64,000 nucleotides of DNA. Origin: Aeromicrobium sp. 9AM. GTDB lineage: Bacteria; Actinomycetota; Actinomycetes; Propionibacteriales; Nocardioidaceae. Under the pieces are notes generated by a model. That model had not been told where the DNA came from and searched no databases. It was given only the letters and a program-made list of their open reading frames with translations. A program made the translations under genes and the position numbers. Numbering within the stretch: position 1 is the first letter of the stretch; every line of letters starts with the position of its first letter. Shown here one piece after another: positions 2,815-26,253 of this stretch. The DNA is taken from contig NZ_LR733304.1 of assembly GCF_902506105.1 (NCBI RefSeq), forward strand, positions 744,001 through 808,000. The letters run 5' to 3'.

Positions 2815-2830
2815 TTGGACACGCCGCCTC
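2815..2830. promoter_or_regulatory. Cluster operator site 1 (upstream of the TetR gene)
   Basis: TTGGACACGCCGCCTC matches the cluster consensus TMGGACRNNYGNCCKA at most positions. It lies directly upstream of the TetR gene start at 2793. It is the weakest copy (last base and one core base differ), and no good -35 box faces the TetR gene. Confidence 0.5.
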
Positions 2831-2867
2831 TATTCACGAGAACGGTGAGTGGATCGCCGGCAACTGC

Positions 2868-2897
2868 TTGACAAATATCGGATGACTGCCCTAGATT
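2868..2897 (+). promoter_or_regulatory. Promoter of ABC importer 1 with cluster operator site 2
   Basis: A perfect -35 box TTGACA (2868-2873) is followed after 18 bases by TAGATT (2892-2897). The operator TCGGATGACTGCCCTA occupies 2878-2893, between the two boxes, with its last two bases being the first two of the -10 box. A repressor bound here would block RNA polymerase. Confidence 0.75.
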
Positions 2898-3047
2898 CAT
2901 GACACTTGCTGGCCGGACGACATCAATCGTGCGGCGTCCGCCCAGACGAGCCCACGCATCCGAACTGCATGTTGGAGAGGGACTGATGATGTCGAGAATC
3001 CCTTGTCTAGGGCCATGGCTGCGGGGCCACGAGCGGAGGTCGGCCCT

Positions 3048-3995
3048 GTGATCGCCTACGTCGTCCGCCGCCTCGCGCTCAGCGTGGTCGTCGTGTGGGG
3101 ACTCGCGACCGTGACCTTCTTCATGCTCCACCTCTTGGTGCCCGGCGACCCGGTCAGACGAGCGCTCGGGCCTCGAGCGTCCGAGGAGACGATCAGCAAC
3201 CTGCGTCACCAGCTCGGCTTCGACCGCCCGGTCCTGGAGCAGTACGGCAGTTTCCTTGGAGGTCTGCTTCATGGTGACCTCGGGACGTCGCTCTCGCTCA
3301 GTGCGCCGGTGTCGCAGATCCTGGGGGACCGCATCCTGCCGAGCGCGCTGCTCATCGCTTACGGCTTGGTAGTGGCGTTTGCGATCGGACTCCCTCTGGG
3401 CATCCTGTCGGCGATCCGGCCCAATGGGACGGCGGATCACGGTGTCCGGATCGGAACGACCTTCGTCTTCGGCATGCCGGTGTTCTGGCTGGGGCTGATC
3501 CTGGCGCTCGTCTTCGGGCTCAAGCTGGGCTGGTTCCCGGTGTCGGGCTATCGCAGCGGTGTGGGCGGCACCTTCAAGACTCTCACGCTGCCTGCCTTGA
3601 CGCTCGGACTATCACTCGTCGTCATCGTCACGCGCACGCTGAGGTCCAACCTGATCAACGTCCTCAAGTCCGAGTACATCGAGGCCGCGAGATCACGCGG
3701 GCTGTCCGAGCGCCGCATCATCGGCAAGCTCGCGATGCGGAACGCGATCATGCCGACGTTCACGATCCTTGGCGCCCTGATCGGCTACCTGATCGGCGGG
3801 ACCGTCGTGATCGAGCAGGTCTATCAAATCCCGGGCGCCGGCTCGCTGCTCGTCCGCTCGATCCTCCAGAGGGACTTCCAGACGGTGCTTGCCGTCACCC
3901 TCATCTCCGGCGCAGCCGTTGTCACGGTGAGCTTCCTGACCGACGTCCTGCAAGCCGTGCTCGATCCACGAGTCCGTCTGGAAGGCAAATCATGA
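3048..3995 (+). CDS. ABC transporter permease, peptide/nickel (DppB) type
   Basis: The 315-residue inner-membrane protein is the first permease of a peptide/opine/nickel-type importer. It opens with VIAYVVRRLAL followed by a long hydrophobic segment, has about six membrane spans, and carries the cytoplasmic EAA loop (YIEAARSRGLSERRI) that docks onto the ATPases. I chose the GTG at 3048 because GGAGGT lies seven bases upstream and because DppB proteins normally start right at this first transmembrane helix. The frame is open from a TTG at 3003. The gene is first in a four-gene operon (3048-6692) whose members overlap by four bases each, and it is driven by the operator-bearing promoter at 2868-2897. 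The matching binding protein is encoded on the other strand at 6852-8465. The substrate is unknown. Confidence 0.92.
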   Translation: MIAYVVRRLALSVVVVWGLATVTFFMLHLLVPGDPVRRALGPRASEETISNLRHQLGFDRPVLEQYGSFLGGLLHGDLGTSLSLSAPVSQILGDRILPSALLIAYGLVVAFAIGLPLGILSAIRPNGTADHGVRIGTTFVFGMPVFWLGLILALVFGLKLGWFPVSGYRSGVGGTFKTLTLPALTLGLSLVVIVTRTLRSNLINVLKSEYIEAARSRGLSERRIIGKLAMRNAIMPTFTILGALIGYLIGGTVVIEQVYQIPGAGSLLVRSILQRDFQTVLAVTLISGAAVVTVSFLTDVLQAVLDPRVRLEGKS

Positions 3996-4858
3996 CGTCT
4001 GAGATGCACGTCCTCGCCGGTCCACAGGCGTCCGTCCGTCGGCGACGACGCCACTGGCCGGTCTCGGCCGTCGTGGGGCTGGGCATCATCGGCACGATCG
4101 TGCTGCTGGCGGTGCTGGCGCCAATCATCGCGCCCTACGATCCCAACAAGCTCGACTTCGCGTCCCCCACGCTCGCGCCCTCGTGGCACCACCTGATGGG
4201 CACCGATCAGAATGGGCGCGACCTCTTTAGTCGCACCCTCTACGGCTTGCGGCTCGACCTTGCGGTCGTTGCGGTTGTCACCTTCGTCCCTCTGCCCATC
4301 GGGGTGGTGATCGGATCGGTCGCCGGCTACTTCGGCGGCAAGCTCGACGCCGTCATCTCCCGTCTGGTCGACATCGTCATCTCCTTTCCCTTCATGGTGC
4401 TGGTGATCTCGATCATCGCGATGGTCGGCCCGGGCCTCAAGGGCATCCTGATCGGCGTGCCGATCGTGTCGTGGTCGCTCTACACGAGGCTCGCTCGCGC
4501 CGACATGCTGGTCATTCGGGAGCTGCCTTACATGGAGGCGTGCGTCGCGCTCGGATACTCGCGATCGCGCACCATCTTCCGGCACGCCATCCCCAACCTC
4601 GTGAGGAACAGCCTCGTGTTCTCGACCGTCGACGTCATGGGCAACCTGCTGCTGCTGGCCGGGGTGTCCTACCTCGGTCTCGGGGCACAACCGCCGACCC
4701 CCGAGCTCGGCTCGATCATCGCCGAAGGCCAGGCCTACATGCTGACCGCCTGGTGGGTGGTGACCCTGCCCGCGCTGGTGCTGGTGGTGTTCGGCGTGGG
4801 CATTGGCATCCTCGGCGACAGCCTCTCCGACGGTCGACTCTCGGGGGTCGTCGAATGA
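3992..4858 (+). CDS. ABC transporter permease, peptide/nickel (DppC) type
   Basis: This 288-residue membrane protein is the second permease of importer 1. A short cytoplasmic N-terminus rich in arginine precedes the first membrane helix, and the DppC-type segment with LMGTDQNGRDLFSR follows, which is the periplasm-facing signature of this subfamily. The EAA loop is near residue 180 (MEACVALGYSRSRT). The ATG overlaps the stop of the upstream permease by four bases, and its own stop overlaps the next ATPase start, so the four proteins are probably made in stoichiometric amounts. It would form the transmembrane channel with the 3048-3995 product. Nothing in the sequence indicates the transported compound. 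Confidence 0.92.
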   Translation: MTSEMHVLAGPQASVRRRRRHWPVSAVVGLGIIGTIVLLAVLAPIIAPYDPNKLDFASPTLAPSWHHLMGTDQNGRDLFSRTLYGLRLDLAVVAVVTFVPLPIGVVIGSVAGYFGGKLDAVISRLVDIVISFPFMVLVISIIAMVGPGLKGILIGVPIVSWSLYTRLARADMLVIRELPYMEACVALGYSRSRTIFRHAIPNLVRNSLVFSTVDVMGNLLLLAGVSYLGLGAQPPTPELGSIIAEGQAYMLTAWWVVTLPALVLVVFGVGIGILGDSLSDGRLSGVVE

Positions 4859-5868
4859 GTCTCCTCACGATCTCCGGTCTCGGAGTCGAGTTCGGGCCCC
4901 GGGCGGCCCCGCTCAGCGCGGTGCGCGATGTCAGCCTGACGGTCGATCCTGGAGAGGTCATCGGCCTGGTGGGCGAGTCCGGATCGGGCAAGAGTCTCAC
5001 GAGTCGCGCCATCATGCGGATGGTCCCCTCGCCCGGACGCATCAGCGCGGGCGAGATCTACTTCGACGGTCGTGACGTGATGGCGATGTCGAGCAAGGAG
5101 CTGAGGTCGTTCCGTGCACACGACGTCGGCATGATCTTCCAAGACCCCTTCAGCTCGCTCAACCCGGTCTTCAAGGTCGGGGCCCAGATCACCGAGACCT
5201 TGCGTGCCAACCTGGGCCTCGGTCGGGCCGAGGCCAGGTCGACAGCCATCGATATGCTCGAGCGAGTCGGGATCCCGCGGCCTGAGCAGCACTTCAGCTC
5301 CTATCCGCACGAGCTCAGCGGCGGCATGCGGCAGCGGGTCATGATCGCCCTGGCGACGGCGTCCCGTCCGCGGTTCCTGCTCGCTGACGAGCCCACGACG
5401 GCACTCGACGTGACGACGCAGAAGCAGATCCTGACGTTGCTGGCGACGATGCGTCGCGACTTCGACATGGCAATGCTCCTCGTGTCGCACGACTTCGGCG
5501 TGATCGCCCAGATGTGCGACCGGGTTGCCGTGATGTACGGGGGCCAGATCGTTGAGAGCGGACCCGTGGAAGCCATCTACAGGACGCCTCAGCACCCCTA
5601 CACGAGGGCGTTGCTCGCTTCGGTGCCCGAGCTCGACGCTGTCGACCAGCGGTCGCGTCCAACGCCTCTCGAGGGGTATCCGCCCGAGATCGGACCGGTG
5701 CGCGACGAGTGTGTCTTCGTCGAGCGCTGTCCCTCCGCGAGGCCCGACTGCCGCAGCGGTCGAATGTCCCTCGAGCAAGTGGGGACCCGACACCACTCCG
5801 CGTGCCCGTTCGAGGGACGGCCCGCGGAGGGTGCTCAGTCACCTGTTGCCAAGGAGCGTGTCGTATGA
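4855..5868 (+). CDS. ABC transporter ATP-binding protein, DppD/OppD type
   Basis: The 337-residue cytoplasmic ATPase of importer 1 contains Walker A GESGSGKS (about residue 40), the Q-loop in MIFQDPFSSLNP, the ABC signature LSGGMRQR, and Walker [13 protein letters not shown]. The C-terminal extension HPYTRALLASVPEL plus the cysteine-rich tail (CVFVERCPSARPDC) is typical of OppD/DppD proteins, where such a cysteine cluster can hold an iron-sulfur centre. The start overlaps the upstream permease gene by ATGA, and the stop overlaps the next gene in the same way. It pairs with the product of 5865-6692 to power uptake. The length is normal for the family. Confidence 0.93.
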   Translation: MSLLTISGLGVEFGPRAAPLSAVRDVSLTVDPGEVIGLVGESGSGKSLTSRAIMRMVPSPGRISAGEIYFDGRDVMAMSSKELRSFRAHDVGMIFQDPFSSLNPVFKVGAQITETLRANLGLGRAEARSTAIDMLERVGIPRPEQHFSSYPHELSGGMRQRVMIALATASRPRFLLADEPTTALDVTTQKQILTLLATMRRDFDMAMLLVSHDFGVIAQMCDRVAVMYGGQIVESGPVEAIYRTPQHPYTRALLASVPELDAVDQRSRPTPLEGYPPEIGPVRDECVFVERCPSARPDCRSGRMSLEQVGTRHHSACPFEGRPAEGAQSPVAKERVV

Positions 5869-6692
5869 CTTCACCGCACGACGTAGTGCTATCCGTGGAT
5901 TCCATCACCAAGGACTTCCGCCTGAGGCGCGGCGCGGAGGGTCGCGGCGGCACCACGTCCCACCGCGCGGTCGACGGCGTCTCGTTCAACCTGCAGCGCG
6001 GCGAGATTCTCGGGCTGGCCGGCGGGTCCGGCAGCGGCAAGACGACCCTCGCGAGATGCATCATCCGCCTCGTCGAGCCCGACTCAGGAAGTGTCCTTCT
6101 CGATGGCTCCGACGTGCTGAGCCTGAAAGGCAAGGAGCTGCGGAGGATGCGGCGCCGCATCCAAATGGTGTTCCAAGACCCCTACTCGTCGCTCAATCCG
6201 CGGCTCTCGATCGGGTCAGCCATCCTCGAGGTTGGTCGTGTTCACTCCCGTCCCGGCGCCGACGACGGCGACCAGTTTGTGCGCGAGATGCTCGACCGGG
6301 TGCAGCTCTCACCGGCGCTCGCGCTCCGCATGCCCCGTGAGCTGTCCGGCGGGCAGCGCCAGCGCGTCGCCATCGCCCGCGCGCTCGCCGCCGGCCCCGA
6401 CGTCCTGATCGCTGACGAGGCGGTCAGCGCGTTGGACGTCTCGGTCCAAGCTCAGCTGCTCAATCTGTTCAGCAACCTAAGGGACGAGCTCGGGCTCTCG
6501 ATCATCTTCGTCGCCCATCAGCTCGCCGTCCTGGCCTCGATCGCTGACCGAGTCGCGGTCATGAGCGCAGGGGAGCTCGTCGAGCTCGGGACGACCAAGG
6601 ACGTGTTTCAGTCGCCTCAGCACGACTACACCAAGGCTCTGCTCGATGCCCACCCGCGGGCTGATCCGACCCAGCGCATCGACCCCCGCTGA
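5865..6692 (+). CDS. ABC transporter ATP-binding protein, DppF/OppF type
   Basis: The 275-residue second ATPase of importer 1 shows Walker A GGSGSGKT, the Q-loop MVFQDPYSSLNP, the signature LSGGQRQR, and Walker B VLIADEAVSALD. In the Walker B region alanine-valine replaces the usual proline-threonine, a known and harmless variant. AAGGAG lies nine bases before the ATG at 5865, which overlaps the stop of the upstream ATPase gene. It is a little shorter than most OppF proteins (about 320 residues) because the C-terminal oligopeptide-type tail is reduced. It is the last gene of the operon; a strong hairpin follows 15 bases after the stop. Confidence 0.92.
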   Translation: MTSPHDVVLSVDSITKDFRLRRGAEGRGGTTSHRAVDGVSFNLQRGEILGLAGGSGSGKTTLARCIIRLVEPDSGSVLLDGSDVLSLKGKELRRMRRRIQMVFQDPYSSLNPRLSIGSAILEVGRVHSRPGADDGDQFVREMLDRVQLSPALALRMPRELSGGQRQRVAIARALAAGPDVLIADEAVSALDVSVQAQLLNLFSNLRDELGLSIIFVAHQLAVLASIADRVAVMSAGELVELGTTKDVFQSPQHDYTKALLDAHPRADPTQRIDPR

Positions 6693-6851: not shown

Positions 6852-8465
6852 CTACTTGCTGACTAGCCATGCCTCCTGGAGTTGGTCGACGCCGAGGGCG
6901 TTGACTCCCGTTCCGCACACAGTCGTGTCGTGTGCGACGAAGAACGGCAGGTTCAAGATGTTGATCGACGGGAGCTCGTCGTTGAACAGCTTTTGGATGA
7001 CCGGCCACTGCTCGGCACGAGCCGCATCGTCGGGCGTCGAGATGAACTCCTTCACCTTGGCCGCGACGTCTGCGTTCTTCCAGCTGGTGTGGAATGCGTT
7101 GTTCGTCTCAGGGAGTCCGTAGAAGACGGCGTACTCGTCCGGCACGGCGATGTCGCTGCTGACGCCGGGGAAGGCGAACGTCACGTCGTACTTCTCGTCG
7201 CGCCAGTCCTCAACCATCGTCGCAGGGTCGATCTTCTTGAGGCTGACCTTGATGCCAATCTGAGCCAGCTGCTGCTGAACTGCGAGCGAGACCTGGTTGA
7301 AGAACTCTGTTCCGGCCGGAAAGGCGAGTTCGGTCGAGAAGCCATCCGGAAAACCCGACTCGGACATCAACTTCTTGGCCTTCGCGACATCCTTAGTGAA
7401 GGCGGGCACCTCGCTGGTTGGGGCGTCGTAGCGCAGTTTGGCGAACACGCTGTTCGGCACGGTGGCCAGACCGCCGAAGATCTGCTTGTTGATCGACTCT
7501 CGATCGAGGACAGCGTTGATAGCCTGACGCACCTTCTTGTCGGCGAACTCGTCCTTCTTCTCGTTGAGGAACAGCGCGATCCATTGGGGGCCGGGCTCAC
7601 CCTTCAGGCCTAGCTTGGGATTTTTGTTGACCTTGTCGATCTGGGCTGGCTCGATGCCATCAGCCATCTGCGCGTCACCGCTTTGGAGCGCGAGGAGTCG
7701 GCTGTTGGAGTCGGTGGCGAAGTTAAAGGTCACGTCGTCAATGTAGGGCTTGCCATCCTCCCAGTAGTGCTCGTTCCGGGTCAGTTCCAGGCGCGAACCG
7801 CCGGCGAAGTTCTTGACCGCGTAGGGCCCGGAGCCGACGGGCTTCTTCCAGAAGTTGTCGCCCTGCTCCTCGACGAGTTTCTTCGGAACGATGAATGCCG
7901 GGAAGACCGCGATGTTGTCGAGGAACGAAGGGACGGTCTGCGTCAAGCTGATCTGGACCGAGTCGTCGGCGAGGATCTTGGACGAGTCGTAGCCGACCGC
8001 GAGGTTGCCCAGGACCTGGTTGATGTCCGGATTGCCGAAACGGTCGAGACTGAACTTCACGTCTTCAGCGGTGACCGGGTCGCCGTTGGAGAACTTGACA
8101 TCCTTACGGAGGTGAAAGGTGTAGGTCTTGCCGTCGGGCGAGACCTTCCACGTGTCGGAGACACCGCCGACGATCTTGTCGGTTCCCTTGGGGTCGTACC
8201 GCACGAGACCTTCGTAGATGAGGCCGTCCGCGAAGATGTCGCCGTTTCCACTGCGGATCGCGATGGGGTTGAGCGTAAGGGTCTCCTGCGAACGCGCGTA
8301 CGTGAGGCTGCCACCACTGACGGGCGCGGCTTTGCACGCCGTGTTGTCCTTCGAGTCGGGTGCGGCGGTCTTCTTGTCGTCTGAGGAGCCTCCTGAACAG
8401 GCGGCCACCCCCAGCAGTGCTGCTACCAACGTTGCCGTCAGCATGGCGCGGCGTCTAATCCTCAT
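6852..8465 (-). CDS. ABC transporter substrate-binding lipoprotein, family 5 (importer 1)
   Basis: The 537-residue protein has an arginine-rich N-terminus, a hydrophobic stretch and the lipobox GVAACS at about residue 23, so it should be exported and lipid-anchored outside the membrane. The mature part reads as an SBP_bac_5 (DppA/OppA) protein: SLTYARSQETLTLNP near the N-terminus, GLVRYDPKGTDKIVGGVSDTW, and TYTFHLRKDVKFSNGDPVTAEDVKFSLDR are characteristic. It would capture the substrate for the importer encoded at 3048-6692, whose operon lacks a binding-protein gene. It is transcribed convergently to that operon from its own operator-bearing promoter (8654-8682). Separation of the binding protein from its permeases is unusual and allows much higher expression of this component. 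The ligand cannot be read from the sequence. Confidence 0.92.
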   Translation of the reverse strand: MRIRRRAMLTATLVAALLGVAACSGGSSDDKKTAAPDSKDNTACKAAPVSGGSLTYARSQETLTLNPIAIRSGNGDIFADGLIYEGLVRYDPKGTDKIVGGVSDTWKVSPDGKTYTFHLRKDVKFSNGDPVTAEDVKFSLDRFGNPDINQVLGNLAVGYDSSKILADDSVQISLTQTVPSFLDNIAVFPAFIVPKKLVEEQGDNFWKKPVGSGPYAVKNFAGGSRLELTRNEHYWEDGKPYIDDVTFNFATDSNSRLLALQSGDAQMADGIEPAQIDKVNKNPKLGLKGEPGPQWIALFLNEKKDEFADKKVRQAINAVLDRESINKQIFGGLATVPNSVFAKLRYDAPTSEVPAFTKDVAKAKKLMSESGFPDGFSTELAFPAGTEFFNQVSLAVQQQLAQIGIKVSLKKIDPATMVEDWRDEKYDVTFAFPGVSSDIAVPDEYAVFYGLPETNNAFHTSWKNADVAAKVKEFISTPDDAARAEQWPVIQKLFNDELPSINILNLPFFVAHDTTVCGTGVNALGVDQLQEAWLVSK

Positions 8466-8653: not shown

Positions 8654-8682
8654 AATCTAGGCCGCGTGACCTAGATTGTCAA
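8654..8682 (-). promoter_or_regulatory. Promoter of the binding-protein gene with cluster operator site 3
   Basis: On the minus strand TTGACA (8682-8677), a 17-base spacer and TAGATT (8659-8654) form a near-consensus promoter. The operator TAGGTCACGCGGCCTA (8673-8658) fills the spacer and is one of the most symmetrical copies. Confidence 0.8.
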
Positions 8683-8778: not shown

Positions 8779-8803
8779 CAATATGGGGCGGACGACCTAG
8801 TTT
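8779..8803 (+). promoter_or_regulatory. Promoter of cofC with cluster operator site 4
   Basis: The operator copy TGGGGCGGACGACCTA (8784-8799) runs into the -10-like TAGTTT (8798-8803), about 35 bases before the GTG of cofC. The -35 region is poor. The 374 bases between 8465 and 8839 hold this site and the divergent promoter at 8654-8682; I see nothing else there. Confidence 0.6.
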
Positions 8804-8838
8804 GGGGTAGGTTGAGGGCCGACGAAAGGGTGGGCGAC

Positions 8839-9477
8839 GTGCTCGGATGGACTGTGGTGCTTCCCGTCAAGCCGTGGTCGTTGGCCAAGGCTCGGCTGCT
8901 CGTCCCTGACTCTGTCCGACCTCTCCTTGCCCGCGCGTTCGCGTTGGATGTCCTCGACGCTCTGCGCAGGTCGCCGGACGTCGGTCATGTCGTGATCGTC
9001 ACCGCAGAGGGAGGGCTTCGCTCGGAGGCTCGACACGACACGACGGTGCTGGTCGATCGCCCACTCGTGACCGTTGACCCGCTGAACGCAGCGATCCTGA
9101 TTGGTCGCGCCTGGGCGCTGACCCGGCGACAGTGTCAGCCGATCGTCGTGGTCCCGAGCGATGTGGCCTGCCTGACTCCCGAGGCTCTGGCGAACGTGTT
9201 CGCAGAGGCAGCAGGTCGACGCGGCATCGTCGTGGACGCTGCGGGCGTGGGGACCGCGATGCTCCTGGCGCCGCGCCCCGCGCAGCTCCTGCCCGCCTAC
9301 GGGCCGGGTTCGGCCGAGGCCCATCGTTTGCTGGGCTATGTCGAGGTGGCACGTCATGAGCGCAGGGCGCGCCTGGACGTCGACACCCTCAGTGACCTGA
9401 GCGAGGCGCGAAGGCTCGGTCTGGGGGCACGAGCTTCCGAGACCGAACCTAGGACATTCCACCTAGATTCGGTATAG
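8839..9477 (+). CDS. cofC: Phosphoenolpyruvate/2-phospho-L-lactate guanylyltransferase (CofC/FbiD)
   Basis: The 212-residue protein has the nucleotidyltransferase fold of CofC/FbiD, which activates phosphoenolpyruvate (in actinobacteria) or 2-phospholactate with GTP for coupling to FO during F420 synthesis. Visible family features are VVLPVKPWSLAKARL at the N-terminus (nucleotide-binding loop), VVVPSDVACLTPEAL in the position of the metal-binding Asp segment, and AYGPGSAEAHRLLG in the substrate loop. I chose the GTG at 8839 because it matches the family's start and because the operator-bearing -10 box at 8798-8803 lies only 35 bases upstream; the frame is open from 8686. A cofC copy inside a catabolic cluster means the cell raises F420 synthesis together with the pathway. 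The fbiA and fbiB steps are not in this window. Confidence 0.88.
   Translation: MLGWTVVLPVKPWSLAKARLLVPDSVRPLLARAFALDVLDALRRSPDVGHVVIVTAEGGLRSEARHDTTVLVDRPLVTVDPLNAAILIGRAWALTRRQCQPIVVVPSDVACLTPEALANVFAEAAGRRGIVVDAAGVGTAMLLAPRPAQLLPAYGPGSAEAHRLLGYVEVARHERRARLDVDTLSDLSEARRLGLGARASETEPRTFHLDSV
9446..9469 (+). promoter_or_regulatory. Promoter of the FMO-glutarate operon with cluster operator site 5
   Basis: TAGGACATTCCACCTA (9450-9465) overlaps the -10 box TAGATT (9464-9469) at the very end of cofC. The -35 position (GACCGA, 9441-9446) is weak. A second -10-like TATAGT follows at 9473-9478. The first gene starts at 9551. Confidence 0.65.
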
Positions 9478-9550
9478 TCGCATCCGGATGCTTCTCCACC
9501 CCGGGCGTCCGTGAGACGGAGTGATCCCGTCACGATCCGAGAGGGCAGCC

Positions 9551-11347
9551 ATGAGTCGTCAAGTCGAAGGCGTCGGCGCGGTGGAGCGATGGGTGACCGA
9601 GCTCGACTCGGCAGCAGCGACAGAGGATGTCGAGGCCATCGTCTCCCTCTTCGCAGTCGACTCCTTCTGGCGCGATCTCGTCGCATTCACCTGGAACATC
9701 ACGACGGTAGAGGGGCACGCCGGGATCGCACACATGCTGCGGCACACGCTGGCCCATACCCGTCCGCATGCCTTCGAGGTCGACCACGATCGTCCGTTGC
9801 CGGCGGCCCGCGCGGGTGTCGAACAGGGTTGGATACGGTTCTCGACCAGCGCAGGCTCGGCTGTCGGCCTGGTGCGGCTCGTCGATGGGAAGGCTTGGAC
9901 GTTGCTCACGGCCCTGCGTGAGCTCGACGGGCACGAGGAGTCGTTGCGTGAGCGGCGGCCATGGGGTGCCGACCATGGGGTCCACACCGAACGTAAGTCG
10001 TGGTCCGAGACCATCGCGCAGGAGCGCCTCGAGATGGGTCGTGTGCGACAGCCTGATGTTCTTGTCGTGGGTGGGAGCCAAGGGGGGCTCGCGCTCGCTG
10101 CACGACTTCGCCAGCTGGACGTCGCGACGATCGTCGTCGACAGCACGGATCGGCCGGGGGACACCTGGCGGAACCGTTACAAGTCGCTCTGCCTCCACGA
10201 TCCTGTGTGGTTCGACCATCTCCCGTACCTTCCGTTCCCCGAGAACTGGCCCGTGTACACACCGAAGGACAAGCTCGCCGACTGGCTCGACCTCTATGCC
10301 AGCGCGATGGAGATCAACTTCTGGGGTGGGACGACGTGCACCGCGGCCAGCTGGGACGAGGAGTCCGGGCGGTGGGACGTCACGCTCGATCGGAGCGGCA
10401 AGACGGAGATCGTCCGACCGGCGAACCTCGTGCTCGCGACAGGCTTGAACGGTCGTCCGCGCCATCCGGTGTTCGAGGGCGCCGATGACTTCGCCGGGGA
10501 GCAACATCACTCCAGCGAGCACCCTGGTCCCGAGTCCTACCGCGACAAGAAGGTCGTTATCGTCGGGGCCAACAACTCAGCTCACGACATCGCTGCCGCG
10601 CTGTGCGAGTCCGGCGCCGACGTGACGATGATTCAGCGGTCCTCGACCCTGGTGATCAAGGCGGAAACGAGTCGAGAGCGGTCGTTCGGGACGCTCTACT
10701 CGGAGAGCGCGGTCTCGGCCGGGATCACCGCCGACACGGCAGACCTGATCCAGGCGGCCACGCCCTATCGTCTCGTGCCCGAGATGCAGATCCCCATGTG
10801 GGACGAGATCCGTGCCGCGGACCAGGAGTTCTACGACGCGCTGACGAAGGCCGGGTTCGCGCTGGACTTCGGCGAGGACGGCTCGGGCCTGACGATGAAG
10901 TTCCTGACCCGAGGAGGCGGCTACTACATCGACGTCGGCGCCTCCGGGCTCGTCGCCGACGGGTCGATCCGGCTGCGGTCCGGCCGGCAGATCTCGCGTC
11001 TCGACCGGGACGGACTCGTCCTCGACGACGGCGAGCACCTCGACGCCGACGTCATCGTGTACGCAACAGGGTTCAGCCCCGCGCAGGATTCCCTCGCGCA
11101 CATCGTGTCGCCGGAGATCGCAGCACGGGTCGGAAGGATCTGGGGCCTGGGGTCCGGCCGGGAGGGGGATCCTGGACCGTGGGTAGGCGAGCTGAGGAAT
11201 ATGTGGAGACCCACGGCGCAGGACGGGCTGTGGGTTCATGGTGGCAATCTGCAGATGTCGCGAAGCTACTCGACCTATCTCGCGCTTCAGCTCAAGGCTC
11301 GCCTCGTCGGTCTGCCGACCCCTGTCTACGAGCCTGACCATGGTTGA
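9551..11347 (+). CDS. Flavin-containing monooxygenase with N-terminal NTF2/SnoaL-like domain
   Basis: The 598-residue protein has two parts. Residues 1-150 look like an NTF2/SnoaL-type small alpha/beta barrel (ERWVTELDSAAATEDVEAIVSLFAVDSFWRDLVAFTWN). The rest is a class B FAD/NADPH monooxygenase with a first dinucleotide motif around VLVVGGSQGGLALAARL, the downstream PGDTWRNRYKSLCLHDP segment and a second Rossmann motif KVVIVGANNSAHDIAAAL. The YATGF motif near residue 510 is typical of FMO and Baeyer-Villiger-related enzymes. It would insert one oxygen atom into a substrate (N- or C-oxidation, or Baeyer-Villiger) in the cytoplasm. The start at 9551 has GAGAGGG nine bases upstream. It is first in a six-gene operon leading to glutaryl-CoA. 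The substrate is unknown; the Baeyer-Villiger fingerprint is not complete, so simple FMO or YUCCA-like chemistry is as likely. Confidence 0.85.
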   Translation: MSRQVEGVGAVERWVTELDSAAATEDVEAIVSLFAVDSFWRDLVAFTWNITTVEGHAGIAHMLRHTLAHTRPHAFEVDHDRPLPAARAGVEQGWIRFSTSAGSAVGLVRLVDGKAWTLLTALRELDGHEESLRERRPWGADHGVHTERKSWSETIAQERLEMGRVRQPDVLVVGGSQGGLALAARLRQLDVATIVVDSTDRPGDTWRNRYKSLCLHDPVWFDHLPYLPFPENWPVYTPKDKLADWLDLYASAMEINFWGGTTCTAASWDEESGRWDVTLDRSGKTEIVRPANLVLATGLNGRPRHPVFEGADDFAGEQHHSSEHPGPESYRDKKVVIVGANNSAHDIAAALCESGADVTMIQRSSTLVIKAETSRERSFGTLYSESAVSAGITADTADLIQAATPYRLVPEMQIPMWDEIRAADQEFYDALTKAGFALDFGEDGSGLTMKFLTRGGGYYIDVGASGLVADGSIRLRSGRQISRLDRDGLVLDDGEHLDADVIVYATGFSPAQDSLAHIVSPEIAARVGRIWGLGSGREGDPGPWVGELRNMWRPTAQDGLWVHGGNLQMSRSYSTYLALQLKARLVGLPTPVYEPDHG

Positions 11348-18258: not shown

Positions 18259-18302
18259 ACGACGCTTCGGCTGCTTACACCACGAGACGGGAAGTCCGCA
18301 CA

Positions 18303-19268
18303 ATGAATCAGAGGCCTAGGTATCAGGATCTTCCGCAGCTGCCTTCCGGGGCCAGATCGGGATGGCACGTGTTTGGGGACGACGACCAGGTGGGTCTGGT
18401 GAACCTGCAGACGAGCGATCGCGTCCTCGAGGCCTCGGGCGCCGTCGTCTCGGGTGAGGTCTTCGCGCTAAGCGCGGAGGTCGGCCTAATCAACCCGGCG
18501 ATGTTCGGTCGCCGCCGCCCTCGTCACCTGGTCGTCGACGAGGGAACGGGGTGCGACTTCGACGACGTCCTCGACGACTTCAACCCCCAAGCCTCTAGCC
18601 AGTGGGACTCACTCGCGCACGTGGGCTACGCCCGTGACATGTTCTACAACGGCGCGACCGCCGCCGAGGTGGCCGCCGGCCGGCGAAACACGATCGATCA
18701 TTGGGCGCGCCGGGGCATCGTCGGACGAGGCGTGGTCATCGACGTCGAGGCGCTCTACCTGGGCCGGGACGGTGTGTACGACCCGGGGGAGACGACGCGA
18801 GTGACGGTTGAAGACCTCGAGGCTGCGCGAGTGGCCGCCGGCGTCGAGTGGCGCACGGGTGACGTGATGATCCTTCACACAGGCTTCCTGGGCTGGTACG
18901 TCGATGCGGATCAGGGCGTTCGCGATCGGTATGCGTCGCCCGACATGACGGCGTTGACGTCGGCCGGGCTCGACCGTGGTCCCACGATGCTCGAGTACCT
19001 CTGGGACGCCGGCCTCTCGGCCGTCGTCGCCGACAATCCTGGTGTCGAGGCGATGCCGTTCGACGCTGGACAGGACGCGTGGCCATTCGGGTTCTTGCAC
19101 CACTGTCTGATCGGTCAGCTGGGCATGGCGCTCGGGGAGCTCTGGTGGCTTCGTGACCTGGCGCACGTCTGTCGCCGTGACGGCAGGCACGAGACACTGC
19201 TTGTCTCAGCGCCGCTGCACGTCGCCGGAGGCATCGGGTCGCCGGCCAACGCCATTGCGCTGAGATGA
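18303..19268 (+). CDS. Cyclase-family metal hydrolase (kynurenine formamidase/isatin hydrolase superfamily)
   Basis: The 321-residue protein belongs to the cyclase family (PF04199), metal-dependent hydrolases that open amide or lactam bonds, such as kynurenine formamidase and isatin hydrolase. The segment SSQWDSLAHVGY near residue 98 is the diagnostic metal-binding motif of the long-form members, and GRGVVIDVEAL plus GDVMILHTGF follow in the expected order. The start at 18303 has GGGAAG upstream; the frame is open from 18252 but that part overlaps the promoter. It is divergent from the LLM gene and precedes the fgd/FO-synthase operon, which has its own promoter. In this cluster it would hydrolyse a cyclic or open-chain amide formed after reduction or oxygenation. 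The substrate is inferred, not seen. Confidence 0.8.
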   Translation: MNQRPRYQDLPQLPSGARSGWHVFGDDDQVGLVNLQTSDRVLEASGAVVSGEVFALSAEVGLINPAMFGRRRPRHLVVDEGTGCDFDDVLDDFNPQASSQWDSLAHVGYARDMFYNGATAAEVAAGRRNTIDHWARRGIVGRGVVIDVEALYLGRDGVYDPGETTRVTVEDLEAARVAAGVEWRTGDVMILHTGFLGWYVDADQGVRDRYASPDMTALTSAGLDRGPTMLEYLWDAGLSAVVADNPGVEAMPFDAGQDAWPFGFLHHCLIGQLGMALGELWWLRDLAHVCRRDGRHETLLVSAPLHVAGGIGSPANAIALR

Positions 19269-19276: not shown

Positions 19277-19306
19277 TGACAAACATAGGACAGGCGCCCT
19301 AGGTTC
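19277..19306 (+). promoter_or_regulatory. Promoter of the fgd/FO-synthase operon with cluster operator site 7
   Basis: TTGACA (19277-19282), an 18-base spacer and TAGGTT (19301-19306) lie 26 bases before the fgd start. The operator TAGGACAGGCGCCCTA (19287-19302) fills the spacer exactly as at 2868 and 26224. Confidence 0.8.
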
Positions 19307-19332: not shown

Positions 19333-20343
19333 ATGAAGTTCGGGTACAAGGCGTCGAATGAGCAGTTCGGCCCGGTAGAGCTCCTTCGCTACGGCGTCAT
19401 CGCCGAGGAGGTCGGGTTCGACTCGGTCTTCGTGTCAGACCACTTGCAGCCCTGGCGGCACGACGGTGGCCACGCCCCGTTCTCGCTGTCGTGGCTGGGC
19501 GCTCTGGGCGCCCGCACCGAGCGGGTGACGATCGGCACCAGCGTGCTCACGCCAACCTTCCGCTACCACCCGGCCATCGTCGCGCAGGCGTTCGCGACGC
19601 TCGGCTGCCTGTTCCCGGGGCGCGTCATCCTCGGGATGGGCACCGGCGAGTCGATGAACGAGGTGCCGCTCGGACTCGAGTGGCCGGAGGGCAAGGAACG
19701 ATTCGCACGGTTCCGCGAGGCAGTCAAGCTAATCCGTCAGCTGTGGGCCGAGGACAGGGTGACGTTCGAGGGTGAGTACTACCAGACCGTGAACGCCACG
19801 ATCTACGACCGTCCGGACGAACAGGTCCCCCTCTTCCTTGCTGCATCCGGGCCTGCGGTGACCCGTTTTGCAGGGCGGCAGGGCGATGGCTACATCACGA
19901 CGTCGGGCAAGGATCCCTCGCTCTACACCGAGACGCTGCTGCCTGCAGTCCGCGAGGGCGCGGCCAGGGCCGGTCGCGAGGCGAGCGACATCGAGATGAT
20001 GATCGAGGTCAAAGTGTCCTTCGACCCGAACCGCGAGGCTGCGAAGGAGGCCACTCGCTTCTGGGGTGCCTTGGCGCTGAGCCCCGAGGAGAAGTGGGGC
20101 GTCGAGGACCCGGTCGAGATGCAGCGGCTCGCGGACGCGTTGCCGGTCGATCGTGCGGCGGCGCGCTTCATCGTGTCGGACGACCCTGACGAGCACGTGG
20201 CCGCGATCCAGCGCTACATCGACCTGGGCTTCACTCACCTGGTGTTCCATGCACCCGGTCCCGATCAGGCTGCCTTCCTGCGCCGCTATGGCGACGAGAT
20301 CCTGCCGCGTCTCCGGTCCCTCGGACCGGGAGTCGACGTGTGA
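19333..20343 (+). CDS. fgd: F420-dependent glucose-6-phosphate dehydrogenase paralogue (Fgd-like)
   Basis: The 336-residue LLM protein matches mycobacterial Fgd1 closely from end to end: [62 protein letters not shown]. The catalytic His37, Trp41 and Glu106 correspond to Fgd1 His40, Trp44 and Glu109. The sugar-phosphate-binding residues also appear kept: Lys193 (TTSGK), Lys254 (SPEEK) and Arg278 (AARFIV), matching Fgd1 Lys198, Lys259 and Arg283. The enzyme should oxidise glucose 6-phosphate (or a similar phosphate ester) and reduce F420, so it supplies F420H2 for the cluster. The ATG at 19333 has AAGGAG nine bases upstream. The gene overlaps the FO synthase start by four bases (GTGA). A dedicated Fgd copy in a catabolic cluster is unusual. 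Confidence 0.88.
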
Positions 20344-22853
20344 CAGCCACGCTGCGAGAGATCGACCGCGCCGTCACGCGGGTCGAGGCGGCGAAGGCGG
20401 TCGACCGGACCGAGGCGCAGGCGTTGCTCCAGGCGCGGGGTGACCACCTCGCGCGACTCATGGCGGTAGCGCGTCGCGTGCGCGACGCGGGACTGGTCGA
20501 CGCAGGTCGAGCAGGCATAGTGACCTACAGCAAGAAGGTCTTCATCCCCCTGACCCGGCTGTGCCGTGACAGGTGCCACTACTGCACCTTCGTGACCACA
20601 CCCACTCACCTCGCCAAGGCGGGACAGGCGCCGTTCCTCTCGGCCGACGAGGTTCTCGCTATCGCTCGCGACGGCGCACAGCTGGGTTGCAAGGAGGCGT
20701 TGTTCACCCTCGGTGACCGCCCGGAGGGGCGCTGGCCCGAAGCGCGCACGTGGCTCGACGAGGCCGGCTACGACTCGACACTGCACTACCTACGGGCGAT
20801 GGCCGTCATGGTGCTCGAGGAGACCGGTCTGCTGCCCCACCTCAACCCGGGCGTCATGACGTGGTCCGAGATGTCGCAGCTCAAGCCTGTCGCACCGTCG
20901 ATGGGGATGATGCTGGAGACCACGTCACGCCGCCTCTACGAGACGCGGGGGGAGGCTCACTACAAGTCGCCCGACAAGGATCCCGACGTGAGGCTGCGCG
21001 TCCTGGAGGACGCCGGACGGATCAACATCCCGTTCACCACCGGGCTGCTGATCGGCATCGGCGAGAACCTGGAGGAGCGGGCGGACAGCATCTTCGCGTT
21101 GCGCCGTGTGGCCCGCGAGTATGGCTCGATCCAAGAGGTCATCGTGCAGAACTTCCGCACCAAACCCGACACCCCGATGCGGCACCGCGACGATCTCGAT
21201 CTGGACGAGTACCTCGCTGCGATCGCCACGACCCGGGTGCTCCTCGGGCCGGGCGCGCGCGTCCAGGCGCCACCCAACCTCGTCGACCTGGCGGTCTGTC
21301 GTGCGCTGCTTGATGCGGGCGTCGACGACTTCGGAGGGATCAGCCCACTCACGCCCGATCACGTCAACCCCGAGCGGCCATGGCCGCAGATCGAAGACGT
21401 CGAGAGGGTATGCGCCGAGGCTGGACTGGTTCTGCGAGAGCGGTTGACGATCCATCCTCCCTACCTGTCAGCCCCGTGGCTCGATCCGCGCCTGCGGGCT
21501 CACGTGCTGGCGCTCGCCGACCCGCGCGGCCTGGCCGATCCTTCGATCCTGCCGGTGGGCCTGCCCTGGCAGGAGCCCGATGGCGGTTGGTCCGACCAGG
21601 GACGGACCGACCTCCATCGCGCAATCGACGTCGAGGGGCGTGCGAATGACCGTCGCTCTGACTTCGAAGACGTCTATGGCGACTGGTCGACGATCAAGGA
21701 GAGGGCGCGGCGGGACGCACAGCCACAGCGGCTGACAGCCGATGTCACCGCGGCCCTCCGAGCAGCCTGGACCGACCCGGCCGGCATCTCGATCGAGCAA
21801 GCCAAGGTCTTGATGACCGCCGAGGCGGGCCCTCCGCTCGAGGCGGTGACGGAGCTGGCCGACGTATTGCGCCGCGACGCGGTCGGTGACGACGTCACCT
21901 ACGTCGTCAACCGCAACATCAACTTCACGAACATCTGCTACACGGGTTGCCGGTTCTGCGCGTTTGCCCAGCGCAAGAGCGACGCCGACGCCTACTCGTT
22001 GAGCCTGGCCGAGATAGCGTCGCGGGCGACCGAGGCGGTGACGGCGGGAGCGACCGAGGTCTGCCTCCAGGGCGGCATCGACCCGGAGCTGCCGGGCACG
22101 GCGTACTTTGACATCGCGGCGGCAGTGAGACGAGCCGAGCCCGGGCTGCACGTGCACGCATTCAGCCCCATGGAGGTCATGAACGGCGTCGCGCGCACCG
22201 GCATGTCCGTGCACGACTTCCTCGTGCGGCTCAAGGAGTCGGGCGTCGACTCGCTGCCAGGCACGGCGGCGGAGATCCTCGACGACGACATTCGATGGGT
22301 CCTCACCAAAGGCAAGCTGCCCACTCAGCAGTGGGTCGACGTCGTGACCACGGCACACCGGGTCGGCCTTCCGACGAGCTCCACGATGATGTACGGCCAC
22401 GTCGATCACCCGGGGCACTGGGTCAACCATTTGCGAACGCTGGCGGCCATCCAGCGGGAGACCGGCGGGTTCACGGAATTCGTCCCGCTGCCGTTCATCC
22501 ACCAGTCGAGCCCGATCTACCTCGCTGGCGTGGCGCGACCCGGACCGTCGGAGCGTGACAACCGCGCTGTCCACGCCGTGGCGCGGATCATGCTGCACGG
22601 ATTGATCGACAACATCCAGTGCTCCTGGGTCAAGCTCGGACCCGAGCAGTGCACGCAGGTTCTCCGAGGCGGGGCCAATGACCTCGGTGGCACGTTGATG
22701 GAGGAGACGATCAGCAGGATGGCAGGGTCGACCAACGGCTCACGCCGAGAGGTCGCCGAGCTCGAAGACATGGCCGCGGCGGCAGGTCGCCCATCGCGGC
22801 AGCGGACGACTGTCTACGGCTCGACTCGTCGCAGCAGTGCCGCAGCCGGCTGA
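20340..22853 (+). CDS. fbiC: FO synthase, fused CofG-CofH radical SAM protein (FbiC)
   Basis: The 837-residue protein carries two radical SAM domains, as in actinobacterial FbiC. The CofG half has its [4Fe-4S] cysteines at Cys75, Cys79 and Cys82 (LCRDRCHYC). The CofH half has Cys533, Cys537 and Cys540 (CYTGCRFC). Together they join tyrosine and 5-amino-6-ribitylaminouracil to make FO, the chromophore of F420. Length agrees with known FbiC proteins (about 850). The GTG start overlaps the stop of the Fgd-like gene, so F420 synthesis and reduction are co-expressed. With cofC at 8839-9477 the cluster carries the FO and phosphoenolpyruvate-activation steps but not fbiA/fbiB. This looks like an extra supply rather than the only pathway, though the rest of the genome is not visible. 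Confidence 0.95.
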
Positions 22854-23843
22854 GACCGATCAGTCGACGTTCGACCTGCGTCACGCGCGGTTGGTGGCTG
22901 GGCCGGGAGCGGGCGACGTAGCGAGGCGCCTCGGCGTGCACCCGATGACGGTGCTCAGGTGGGAGAGACGGGACAGACGTCCCGGGTCGGCGACGACCAA
23001 GGCATTGTCGAGCCTGCTGCAGGTGAATCTCGACGAGGTGTCAAGGTTCTTCTTTCGCGGCGTCTCGCCGGTGCGCAAGACCGGACTGCCGGGCACCGGC
23101 CTACGCTCGCTCCGCGAGCGCAACGGTGTGAGCGCGTAAACGATGGCCACCTGCCTGGGAGTGCCGATGCACACCGTCTACAACTGGGAGGCCGGGCGGG
23201 TCAGGATCCCGAAGGCGCGCGTCCAGGCCATCGCCAACTGCCTGGAGACAAGCCCTCGTGTGCTCGTCGCGGTGCTGGTCGCCGGTCCGCCCGCCGGCGC
23301 GGCGCCGGCCAGCGACGACAGTCCCCTGCATCTGGCCCGCCGCGCCGCCGGGCTGTCGGTCGCTGGGCTGGCTGCCGAGGTCGGGTCGTCGGCGTGCTCC
23401 GTGCGTAGGTGGGAGCTCGGGCGTTGCGCGCCCCAGGTCCGCGATCAGGCGACTCGCCGATGTATTCGGGATCGGGCTCAACGCGGCCGCCGCTCTGGTC
23501 GGCGTGCCCGTGCCGGACGACGTCCGCACCGGGGCGTGGCGTCACGGCCCCCTGCGTGTTGCGGCTCCTCCGCGAGTGGGCCGGAATGTCTCAGACTGAC
23601 GTCGCGCGGTCATGTGGTTGCAGCGTCGCATCGGTCCGAGCGTGGGAGGCGGGACGAACCGTGCCGGCCTTGCGCAACCGGACCGCGCTCGAACGCCTCC
23701 ACGCCTTGGTGCCAGGGTTCTTGGACCCTGCGCGCAGAGGATATGGCTCCCTTGGCCCAAAATTGGACCAGCGCCCGAGATTCGTGGTTGGATGTCGCGG
23801 ACGCCCCGTGGATCGATGCCAAGGAGAAGAATCATGCTCGTGA
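22837..23843 (+). pseudogene. Broken regulator with four XRE/HTH domains (one stop, two frameshifts)
   Basis: Four successive Cro/XRE-type helix-turn-helix units can be read, each with the LR..R...G.S...VA...G....V..WE.GR..P pattern: GDVARRLGVHPMTVLRWE, ATCLGVPMHTVYNWEAGR, AGLAAEVGSSACSVRRWELG, and SQTDVARSCGCSVASVRAWE. Unit 2 is cut by an in-frame TAA at 23138-23140 (sense CAA would restore a perfect HTH). Unit 3 changes frame near 23435 and unit 4 changes again near 23558, each shift equal to +1 or -2. The first ATG lies inside the end of the FO synthase gene, so the intact gene was probably the third member of that operon. The ancestral product would have been a multi-HTH DNA-binding regulator of about 300 residues. 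It is clearly non-functional unless the reads contain errors. The last frame runs past the aroE-like start. Confidence 0.8.
23752..23782 (+). promoter_or_regulatory. Promoter of the AroE-like gene with cluster operator site 8
   Basis: TTGGACCAGCGCCCGA (23763-23778) matches the operator consensus and ends in the -10-like GAGATT (23777-23782). A -35-like TTGGCC lies at 23752-23757. The site sits in the tail of the broken XRE gene, 56 bases before the AroE-like start. Confidence 0.6.
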
Positions 23844-24625
23844 TCACCGGAAAGACCATGGTCTACCTGTGCGTGGGACATCCGACCGACCACGTCAAGG
23901 CGCCTGAGGTGTTCAATGATCTGTTCCGTGACAGAGGCATCGATGCCGTGACGATTGCGGTGGACGTCGCTCCCGAGGATCTCGCCGCGTTCGTCGAGGC
24001 CACGAAAGGGTGGCGCAACCTGATCGGGTTCGGGCTCACGATCCCTCACAAGGAGGCGGTTGTCCCCCTGCTGGACGAGCTTGATCCCACGGCCCAGCGC
24101 ACCCGCGCGGTCAACACGGTCCGGCGGCTTCCGTCGGGACGACTCGTGGGCGGCCTCTTCGACGGGCTCGGGTTCGTGCAAGGCCTGCGCGACGCTGGAC
24201 GCGATCCGCGAGGCATGTCCGTCCTGGTGGTAGGAGCCGGCGGCGTCGGTCGGGCCATCGCATTCGCGCTGGCCGAGGCGGGCGCCTCGAGCATGGCCAT
24301 CGCCAACCGGTCGCGCCCGAGGGCCGAACGCCTGGTGGACGACATCGCCCAGATCGTGCCGGGCGTGAGCGTCGACGTCGGTAGCATCGGGTCGGGGCGT
24401 TACGACCTCGTGGTGAACGCGACCTCGCTGGGTATGCACGAGGACGACGATCTGCCGTTCGCTCTCGACTCGCTCGCCCCCGGCACCGTGGTGGCCGAGG
24501 CTGTGATGTCGCCCGAGGTGACCGCGCTCCTGGTCGAGGCTGAGCGTCGAGGCCTCACGCCTCACCGAGGCCGTGCGATGCGGGATGCGCAGATGGACGT
24601 CGTTGCGCGATTCATCGGGGTGTGA
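23834..24625 (+). CDS. Shikimate/quinate dehydrogenase-like protein (AroE family)
   Basis: The 263-residue protein has the two-domain AroE layout: an N-terminal substrate domain with GFGLTIPHKEA (the catalytic lysine of the N-V-T-x-P-x-K motif) and a C-terminal Rossmann domain with VLVVGAGGVGRAIAFALAEAGA followed by ANRSRPRAERL. The usual N-T-D catalytic motif is replaced by LFDGLGF, keeping the aspartate but not the Asn-Thr. MVYLCVGHPTDHVKAPEVFN replaces the normal S-x-S substrate-carboxylate motif. These changes suggest a substrate other than shikimate. AAGGAG precedes the ATG at 23834 by seven bases. The gene has its own operator-type promoter (23752-23782), so it belongs to the cluster's regulon. 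It could act as an NAD(P)-dependent dehydrogenase on a hydroxy-acid intermediate. The housekeeping aroE would lie elsewhere. Confidence 0.8.
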   Translation: MLVITGKTMVYLCVGHPTDHVKAPEVFNDLFRDRGIDAVTIAVDVAPEDLAAFVEATKGWRNLIGFGLTIPHKEAVVPLLDELDPTAQRTRAVNTVRRLPSGRLVGGLFDGLGFVQGLRDAGRDPRGMSVLVVGAGGVGRAIAFALAEAGASSMAIANRSRPRAERLVDDIAQIVPGVSVDVGSIGSGRYDLVVNATSLGMHEDDDLPFALDSLAPGTVVAEAVMSPEVTALLVEAERRGLTPHRGRAMRDAQMDVVARFIGV

Positions 24626-25162: not shown

Positions 25163-25942
25163 TCATGCTGCGGGGGGCTCGACGGCCGCCGACGCCTGCT
25201 CGGCGGCGCGGACGACCCACGGCACCAGCTCGGCGACGCGCTCGGGCGAGGTGGCCGCGGTCAACGTGCCGACGCTGATCGCGCCGATCGTACAACCAGA
25301 GGTGTCGACTATCGGTGCACCGATGCTCATGCCCTTATAGTCGACCTCGCCGCAACTGATCACCACGCCGGTCCGACGGGTTCGTGCCACGTCGGCGTAC
25401 ACCGTCGCGACTGAGAGCTCGGACGACGTGTCCAACAGTTCACGCGCAGACTGATAGTCCCAGATCTCGCGATCCGACAGACCGGCGAGCATGACGCGCG
25501 GCGCGGCGCCCAAGTGCATCGGAAGGGTGCCGCCAGCACGCACCGTGATGTCCGAGGCGAACCGTCCGTCGAGGACTTCGAGGCAGTGGGCGCGACCGTC
25601 GCGATGCGAGAAGAGGAACACGTTCTCGTCGGTGGCCGACCTCAGCTCCGCCATCGCGTCGCGCGACGTGGAGCGCAGCATGTGGTCGTCGGTGTGCAGA
25701 GTCTCGACGCCGCGCCCGGCGTAGGCGGCCGCGCGGTAGTGTCCGCGCGATGTCTGCTCCACGAGGCCGCCGAAGACCAACGTGCCCAAGATCCGGTGGC
25801 ACGTGGCTTTGCTCAGGCCGAGTGTCGTCGCCACGTCCCGCAACCGGAACTCGTCGCCCTCCGACAAGAGCTGGAGGACATCCATCGCCTTGAGGAGCAC
25901 GAGGACATGGGTGCGGGAAGCGGACGGGGAGTCGTGATGCAT
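25163..25942 (-). CDS. IclR-family transcriptional regulator
   Basis: The 259-residue protein has an N-terminal winged helix (VLVLLKAMDVLQLLSEGDEF, LRDVATTLGLSKATCHRIL) and a GAF-like effector domain ending in the IclR signature region (SCGEVDYKGMSIGAPIVD, GAISVGTLTAATS). IclR proteins often control degradation pathways and bind a small carboxylate or aromatic effector. I prefer the ATG at 25942 to that at 25948 because AGAGG lies seven bases before it but touches the first. It is divergent from the second ABC importer. A copy of the cluster operator (26039-26054) and a separate inverted repeat (26071-26093) lie upstream. It may act locally on the importer, while the TetR gene product acts on the common operators; which one binds which site is open. 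Confidence 0.88.
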   Translation of the reverse strand: MHHDSPSASRTHVLVLLKAMDVLQLLSEGDEFRLRDVATTLGLSKATCHRILGTLVFGGLVEQTSRGHYRAAAYAGRGVETLHTDDHMLRSTSRDAMAELRSATDENVFLFSHRDGRAHCLEVLDGRFASDITVRAGGTLPMHLGAAPRVMLAGLSDREIWDYQSARELLDTSSELSVATVYADVARTRRTGVVISCGEVDYKGMSIGAPIVDTSGCTIGAISVGTLTAATSPERVAELVPWVVRAAEQASAAVEPPAA

Positions 25943-26038
25943 GGTCATACCTCTGTCACCAGCGTGTGTGCAGGTCGGGTGATGCCCTCGGTGGACAGCC
26001 CCATCGTAGGTGTGGCAAGCCCTTCTGGCTACTGGAAG

Positions 26039-26054
26039 TCGGATGAATGCCCGA
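26039..26054 (-). promoter_or_regulatory. Cluster operator site 9 (upstream of the IclR gene)
   Basis: TCGGATGAATGCCCGA is a near-perfect inverted repeat with both TCGG-type half-sites. It lies 97 bases upstream of the IclR start. The -10 (CGACTT on the minus strand) is poor and no good -35 box is seen. Confidence 0.6.
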
Positions 26055-26070
26055 TATTTGGTCGGGTCAA

Positions 26071-26093
26071 AACGTTCTAGATCGTGGAACGTT
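26071..26093. promoter_or_regulatory. Inverted repeat AACGTTC-N9-GAACGTT, possible IclR site
   Basis: Perfect 7-bp arms (26071-26077 and 26087-26093) with a nine-base centre lie in the IclR/importer-2 intergenic region. IclR-type operators are often short palindromes of this size. The rest of the 429-base gap (26094-26223) shows nothing I can name. Confidence 0.35.
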
Positions 26094-26223
26094 GTCCCCG
26101 CGTCGAGGCGCCGCGCGAAGGGGTCGAGCGCGTCGGCTATCGCGACGTTCTACATGCCGAAACATCGCCGATCTCGCGCGAAAACTCGGGGAAACAAGCG
26201 GTGTCCCGAGCACTTTTCGTCGC

Positions 26224-26253
26224 TTGACAGATCTAGGACACGCGTTCTAGGTT
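26224..26253 (+). promoter_or_regulatory. Promoter of ABC importer 2 with cluster operator site 10
   Basis: TTGACA (26224-26229), an 18-base spacer and TAGGTT (26248-26253). The operator TAGGACACGCGTTCTA (26234-26249) fills the spacer. The leader to the GTG start at 26371 is about 110 bases. Confidence 0.8.

Follow-up and report, generated by a model that had tools for sequence, protein, structure and literature searches.

Two described systems come closest to the locus reported here. MftR is a TetR-family repressor with a 27-bp palindromic operator that controls the supply of the redox cofactor mycofactocin and responds to acyl-CoA (PMC8728441). In the npd genes for picrate degradation, F420-dependent hydride transfer of the LLM type serves actinobacterial catabolism (PMC8498797), with NpdR as the local IclR-type regulator (PMC8222616). 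Apart from nitroaromatic remediation, the roles of F420 in these actinobacteria are described as little known (PMC8498797); here and below, these three papers are cited from excerpts. We describe a 24-bp dyad that recurs in a catabolic gene cluster of Aeromicrobium sp. 9AM, in and just left of a stretch of 64,000 nucleotides (the window; C7:744001-808000 of a 4.19-Mb genome in nine contigs). This dyad is almost certainly the operator of a genuine regulon, and it is well supported that nearly all transcription units of the cluster, including genes for F420 supply and two importers, have it in common.

Like the MftR system, the cluster combines a TetR-family repressor (here a candidate) with a palindromic operator governing redox-cofactor supply; unlike it, another cofactor is concerned, the MftR operator reads T-N2-GGCA-N5-TGCC-N2-A, and the single mapped MftR operator contrasts with twelve sites that include import and catabolism. 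F420-dependent LLM-type catabolism with a local regulator is shared with npd, whereas NpdR is of the IclR type and has another motif. The npd gene set also differs from that of the cluster, in which an FMO-like monooxygenase, a CoA-transferase, a cyclase, PdxS and two importers are found. The regulon belongs to a known class, that of local TetR-type regulons, and is unusual in its gene content; among the titles and abstract openings listed by literature searches, we found no report that places F420 biosynthesis and a catabolic pathway in one regulon.

The operator and its promoters

The initial annotation had proposed ten operator sites on the basis of a 16-bp repeat, TMGGACRNNYGNCCKA. A related dyad is present at all ten places in the window, and their alignment yields a 24-bp dyad, RAnnTMGGACRNNYGnCCKAnnTT, whose outer arms, [AG]A on the left and TT on the right, mirror each other. 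The number of copies has to be raised to at least twelve, as two further dyads (C7:741895-741918 and C7:741954-741977) precede the first base of the window by about 2.1 and 2.0 kb. The 16-bp string itself proved a poor consensus of the real 24-bp repeat: it occurs exactly at 18234 and 19286 (0.09 expected; the second position had been given as 19287), but with up to two mismatches its 39 matches are at chance level (35.9 expected) and do not include the site placed at 2815. We consequently rejected this string as statistical evidence. The perfect core GGACRNNYGTCC, which occurs four times in 574 kb of background, is found in none of the 12 cluster sites, all of which are imperfect dyads.

With a symmetrised matrix built from the 12 sites, those in the window scored 20.4 to 32.5, and the best other position in the 64 kb reached 12.5. 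C7:741895, 8654, 9446, 2874 and 19282 count among the high-scoring sites, whereas 26035 and 2811 score low. As this matrix was built from the sites, and the patterns used on the genomes were designed on them, cluster specificity is partly built in, and the ranks of left-out sites give a fairer view. When each site was left out in turn, all 12 ranked between 0 and 9; at most nine positions in the 64 kb scored higher, which equals the number of other window sites. This ranking speaks against chance. In a 999-kb background, from which the cluster's own loci, L028, L109/L110 and any copies of the last three were omitted, seven places scored 16 or above; six of them lie in loci fetched for the motif, and the seventh is the site of locus L167 discussed below.

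The sites and their specificity, the way they fit the promoters and the families of the genes behind them are all read directly from the DNA. Genome-wide, the 24-mer RANNTMGGACRNNYGNCCKADRTT with no or one mismatch gave 11 matches (eight distinct dyads), all within C7:741895-770253. Two mismatches added more cluster sites and, among the matches listed, six places outside; with up to three mismatches, the total came to 122, against 41 for a reversed control. An exact 20-mer was present in 90 of the 391 genomes examined from the order, mostly as a single copy. It occurs nine times in this genome, always in the cluster, four times each in two genomes of the same genus (as two palindromic sites in either case) and no more than three times in any other, one of which has three scattered copies. 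The operator is accordingly specific to the cluster, and since the motif is not frequent at unrelated promoters, the regulon passes the check set for it in the initial annotation.

Half of the 12 sites have an exact TTGACA separated by 17 or 18 bp from their outer arm, and in all six it faces the expected gene. The site at 2874-2897 (+) combines TTGACA, an 18-bp spacing and TAGATT ahead of importer 1 (OppB, OppC and two ATPases; 3003-6692, +), and the one at 8654-8677 reads TTGACA-N17-TAGATT on the minus strand toward solute-binding protein 1 (SBP_bac_5; 6852-8465, -). The dyad at 18230-18253 lies between two divergent genes, with an exact TTGACA on the minus strand toward the F420-dependent LLM oxidoreductase (17260-18192, -) and TGGACA toward the cyclase-family protein (18303-19268, +; PF04199, scanned as 18252-19268). 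Exact -35 elements likewise precede FGD (19333-20343, +) and the FbiC (CofGH) FO synthase (20340-22853, +) at 19282-19305 (+), importer 2 (OppDF-SBP-B-C, SBP denoting the solute-binding protein; 26269-31907, +) and an N,N-dimethylformamidase-like (DMFA2_C) gene (31873-34191, +) at 26230-26253 (+), and an aminotransferase operon at C7:741954-741977 (+).

The other six sites are without an exact TTGACA. TTGGCA, a near match, faces a YczE-like gene at C7:741895-741918. No clear -35 element was found at the five sites that begin at 2811, 8780, 9446, 23759 and 26035. The first of these, a weak dyad (2811-2834), lies in the promoter of the TetR gene at 2179-2793 (-), and 8780-8803 (+) precedes cofC (8797-9477, +; start provisional). 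The dyad at 9446-9469 (+) stands ahead of the catabolic operon (9521-17198, +), which encodes the FMO-like monooxygenase, a type III CoA-transferase, an acyl-CoA dehydrogenase, an aldehyde dehydrogenase (ALDH), PdxS and a zinc alcohol dehydrogenase (ADH). At 23759-23782 (+), a weak -35 element accompanies the dyad ahead of an AroE-like gene (23834-24625, +), and the lowest-scoring site of the window, 26035-26058, is centred about 98 bp before the start of the IclR gene (25163-25948, -), with no clear -35 element in either direction. The TAGRTT that the initial annotation read as a -10 box belongs to the dyad itself, as its right outer arm, and is mirrored on the left. Nearly every unit of the cluster carries the dyad.

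Two operator-like dyads, 3.3 kb apart, were noticed far from the cluster (L028:12067-12090 and 8794-8817; C7:1842067 and C7:1838794), with scores of 21.4 and 16.4; the former is as high as the weak cluster sites. They flank a large gene that reads as AAA/LuxR-like. Since no promoter elements were visible by eye, neither was counted as a regulon member.

Candidate regulators

The TetR protein encoded at 2179-2793 (TetR-A; TetR_N, 7.9e-9; PF00440, 35.6 bits, cut-off 24), which the initial annotation took as the simplest repressor, is the candidate best supported by phylogenetic footprinting, but it has two live rivals. We consider TetR-A to be the probable repressor of the regulon. It has one site in its own promoter, with the centre 30 bp from the ATG, and another on the divergent importer 1. 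For comparison, the 120 bp upstream of each relative of a candidate were scanned with the 24-bp matrix against 5,876 background windows. The 27 TetR-A relatives (23 loci from genome searches and four from plasmids) were thinned by eye to 16 by removing near-duplicates (L113, L114, L119, L120, L122, L123, L125, L126, L127, L129 and L132); L134 (the own gene) and L136 of the TetR-B set and the cluster's own IclR were also dropped at first. A recheck with 120- and 250-bp windows restored all rows except the own genes, giving 27 TetR-A, 29 TetR-B and 21 IclR loci. Many rows are related, so that none of the Fisher values below is a true probability.

Three of the 16 TetR-A relatives carry the dyad at p<=0.004 (Fisher 3.9e-5; 1.8e-5 without L133, which is similar to L131 and was kept alongside it). 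These are L164 (38-39% identical to TetR-A; CCGGACATTTGTCCAG), L166 (34-35%; CTGGACACATGTCCAG) and L167 (30-31%; AATCTTGAAGATGTCTACAAGATT), and their dyads are centred 26-32 bp from the start, compared with 30 bp for TetR-A itself. With all 27 loci, whose rows are not independent, the same number at p<=0.004 gave a Fisher value of 7.5e-6 (120 bp); with 250-bp windows, two loci fell at p<=0.005 (Fisher 0.0021, and about 0.002 in the thinned set as well).

Several observations weigh against TetR-A. Beyond the three named, most relatives show no match or another dyad: for 12 of the 16, p is 0.10 or above, and for one more, whose site is poor, it is 0.017. Leaving out L167 raises the Fisher value to 0.0017 (120 bp) and 0.034 (250 bp), and a 16-bp matrix was weak per site upstream of these relatives (best p 0.037), the 24-mer scan being clearer. 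L115, which at 41% shows the highest identity to TetR-A among the relatives from one of the genome searches (genome G097), carries another dyad, TCTGGAAGATCTTCCAGA. A further genome of the same genus (G100) keeps a protein 95.6% identical to the TetR-A relative of locus L109, introduced below, and the exact 20-mer occurs nowhere in that genome; the 15.7-kb contig with this protein gave no match to the site-bearing hydrolases of L109 either and, for the TetR-B relative, no more than a similar piece of 47 residues. Finally, one perfect site of L109 lies in the promoter of a TetR-B relative. No relative above 50% identity to TetR-A, TetR-B or IclR turned up among those collected.

The L115 promoter also holds a second, partly matching copy of TCTGGAAGATCTTCCAGA. 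The 16-bp layout is the same and the core is changed, which perhaps reflects a shift in specificity.

Locus L109/L110, from two genomes of the same genus, came from a motif search that was blind to regulators and has two perfect sites, AACATCGGACANNTGTCCGATGTT. L109 encodes both a TetR-A relative (13719-14330, 38.5%) and a TetR-B relative (11341-12036, 38%), and both of its sites precede alpha/beta hydrolases. In L166, from Streptomyces sp. NBC_00015, a TetR-A relative has CTGGACACATGTCCAG in its promoter, and the two alpha/beta hydrolases that come after it share 62% and 45% identity with those behind the L109 sites. Like the cluster, these loci join a common GGACANNTGTCC core to a TetR-A relative. 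Unlike the cluster, L109/L110 match it, among its proteins, in TetR alone, with two sites in L109, and L166 has one site, in the TetR promoter, with no F420 or importer gene annotated in its 6.6 kb.

It is unlikely that the same operator and regulon are instead served by TetR-B (C7:739423-740028), whose gene lies some 2 kb to the left of the first site. Its closest relative (38-39%; L109 11341-12036, the same gene being present in a second same-genus genome, L136) does have a perfect 24-bp version scoring 29.3, as high as cluster sites, centred 30 bp before its start and beside a divergent hydrolase. The first scan placed one of 28 TetR-B loci, this L109 gene, at p<=0.005 and one at 0.029 (Fisher 2.7e-4); with 29 loci, the Fisher values were 6.6e-6 (120 bp) and 0.022 (250 bp), the two loci at p<=0.005 being one gene in two genomes. 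By contrast, none of the other 27 loci reached p<=0.005, and one stood at 0.029 (eight of 38 matching genomes yielded no locus); without the two same-genus loci, the values for the remaining, related loci are 0.0073 and 0.61, respectively. Most TetR-B relatives examined (L137-L163, in a family of large genomes, probably Kribbella) have a different promoter dyad, around ATACAGAACTGTAT, and TetR-B has a site neither at its own promoter nor before the operon that it ends. On the scan counts by themselves, little separates TetR-A from TetR-B, with several partial matches against one perfect match. Gene content tips the balance to TetR-A: in the Streptomyces operon, the L109 hydrolases and the core occur with a TetR-A relative, and nothing in its 6.6 kb matched the TetR-B relative of L109.

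About as unlikely is regulation of the operator by the IclR protein (25163-25948; PF09339, HTH_IclR, and PF01614, IclR_C), by analogy with NpdR in the F420-dependent picrate pathway. The IclR gene is located within the regulon and has one of the sites in its promoter region. As given in the excerpt of PMC8222616, the IclR group 2 consensus TGRAACAN1-2TGTTYCA shares the 16-bp layout of the cluster operator and agrees by eye at five of seven half-site positions, with positions 2 and 4 differing; the PobR motif listed there contains ATCGGACA, but the NpdR motif, GTTCMRYATMRTGAWS, is different. A 16-bp scan of 250 bp also found TCGGTCATATGGACTA at the related IclR loci L188 and L196 (score 10.6, top 1% of background). 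Against this, a 24-bp match at p<0.05 was found for none of the 21 IclR relatives (Fisher 0.39 with 120 bp and 0.57 with 250 bp), although this is a weak test, the relatives being distant (26-34%) and the windows placed by where the match begins and not by the gene start. Moreover, the IclR site has the lowest score in the window and lies about 98 bp from the IclR start, and no match to IclR was found in the motif locus L109. That the dyads mark promoters recognised by an alternative sigma factor, or form a repeat family arisen by chance, is very improbable: all sites do lie within promoter regions, half of them directly behind TTGACA, but the left-out ranks and the cluster specificity oppose chance, and sigma-factor sites are not expected to be 24-bp palindromes with conserved arms on both sides.

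A proposed model for F420 supply on demand

CofC (TIGR03552, 117.7 bits, cut-off 105), FbiC/CofGH, FGD (TIGR03554) and the LLM enzyme (TIGR03621, 299 bits, cut-off 213) all exceed curated cut-offs. The genome contains a second FbiC (C7:621988-624474, 76% identical to the cluster copy) and a second FGD (C7:625682-626680, 59%); a stop codon suspected inside this other FGD was dismissed, as it is the terminal stop. In the 10 kb fetched around this other FbiC-FGD locus (C7:621988-626680), no place scored above 12.1 with the matrix.

With regard to repression, the identity of the repressor, induction and the substrate, we infer the following. The 24-bp dyad would be the operator of a dimeric repressor lying across the spacer and the -10 of the controlled promoters, and as the dimer would cover both, steric block is the simplest reading of repression. 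TetR-A, the most likely repressor, would also repress its own gene via the weak site at 2811-2834. Binding of a pathway compound would cause TetR-A to leave the DNA, whereupon the whole set would be transcribed: the two importers, the operon with the monooxygenase, CoA-transferase and dehydrogenases, the genes of the LLM enzyme and the cyclase and the aminotransferase operon left of the window, together with F420 supply in the form of CofC, the additional FbiC and the additional, F420-reducing FGD. The uptake and degradation of some compound would thus probably be switched on jointly with F420 synthesis. We propose that cofactor supply is raised together with the pathway using it. An on-demand arrangement, in which one ligand-sensing repressor induces CofC, the second FbiC, the second FGD and PdxS with the importers and pathway enzymes while the other FbiC-FGD locus stays outside the switch, has in our estimate an even chance of being correct.

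Given twelve defined 24-bp targets and only three candidate regulators, the model can be tested directly, and the genes induced would point to the substrate. The data also suggest what the operator of a group of TetR proteins may look like; in other actinobacteria, related dyads stand upstream of some of these.

Genes of the cluster and its surroundings

The proposed circuit linking F420 supply, transport and C5 catabolism stands as far as F420 supply and the two importers, both of the peptide/nickel type, share the operator. The C5 part is a guess, because the CoA-transferase (335 bits, cut-off 750), the acyl-CoA dehydrogenase (191, cut-off 470) and the ALDH (497, cut-off 750) fall below the cut-offs of the curated glutarate-type NCBIfam models despite their resemblance. 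PdxS, the lyase subunit of pyridoxal 5'-phosphate synthase, lies full length inside the catabolic operon (15195-16088) and passes its cut-off; no adjoining PdxT gene was noticed, though no search was aimed at PdxT. The AroE-like protein, of the shikimate dehydrogenase family, scores below the cut-offs.

The operon behind the dyad at C7:741954 begins left of the window and encodes a class III aminotransferase and RpiB-like, DhaK-like, Dak2 and OMPdecase-like proteins. Its right-hand part (18-2174, +) comprises the DhaK-like, Dak2-domain and OMPdecase-type genes, the latter two assigned by Pfam; RpiB, DhaK and YczE are names assigned by inspection of the translated sequences, with no model behind them.

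A search for sister clusters with the cyclase yielded 20 loci at 47-55% identity, none with the cluster; around them were only scattered weak matches (FMO 27%, ALDH 35-36%, CaiB 37-44%, ATPases and ADH). Plasmid searches with TetR-A, TetR-B, IclR and the cyclase gave only distant relatives. The FMO matched in 52 of 293 genomes, its own included, and the best other match was 56% identical.

Between FbiC and the AroE-like gene (22854-23760), scattered remnants, in three frames, of a protein with several helix-turn-helix repeats look decayed and are without a dyad of their own. The neighbouring operon that ends with TetR-B (L027:8767-16028), which is without the operator, encodes a second FMO, an ALDH, a cyclase (by reading), a D-threonate-kinase-like protein and PdxA, and a third TetR gene adjoins its start.

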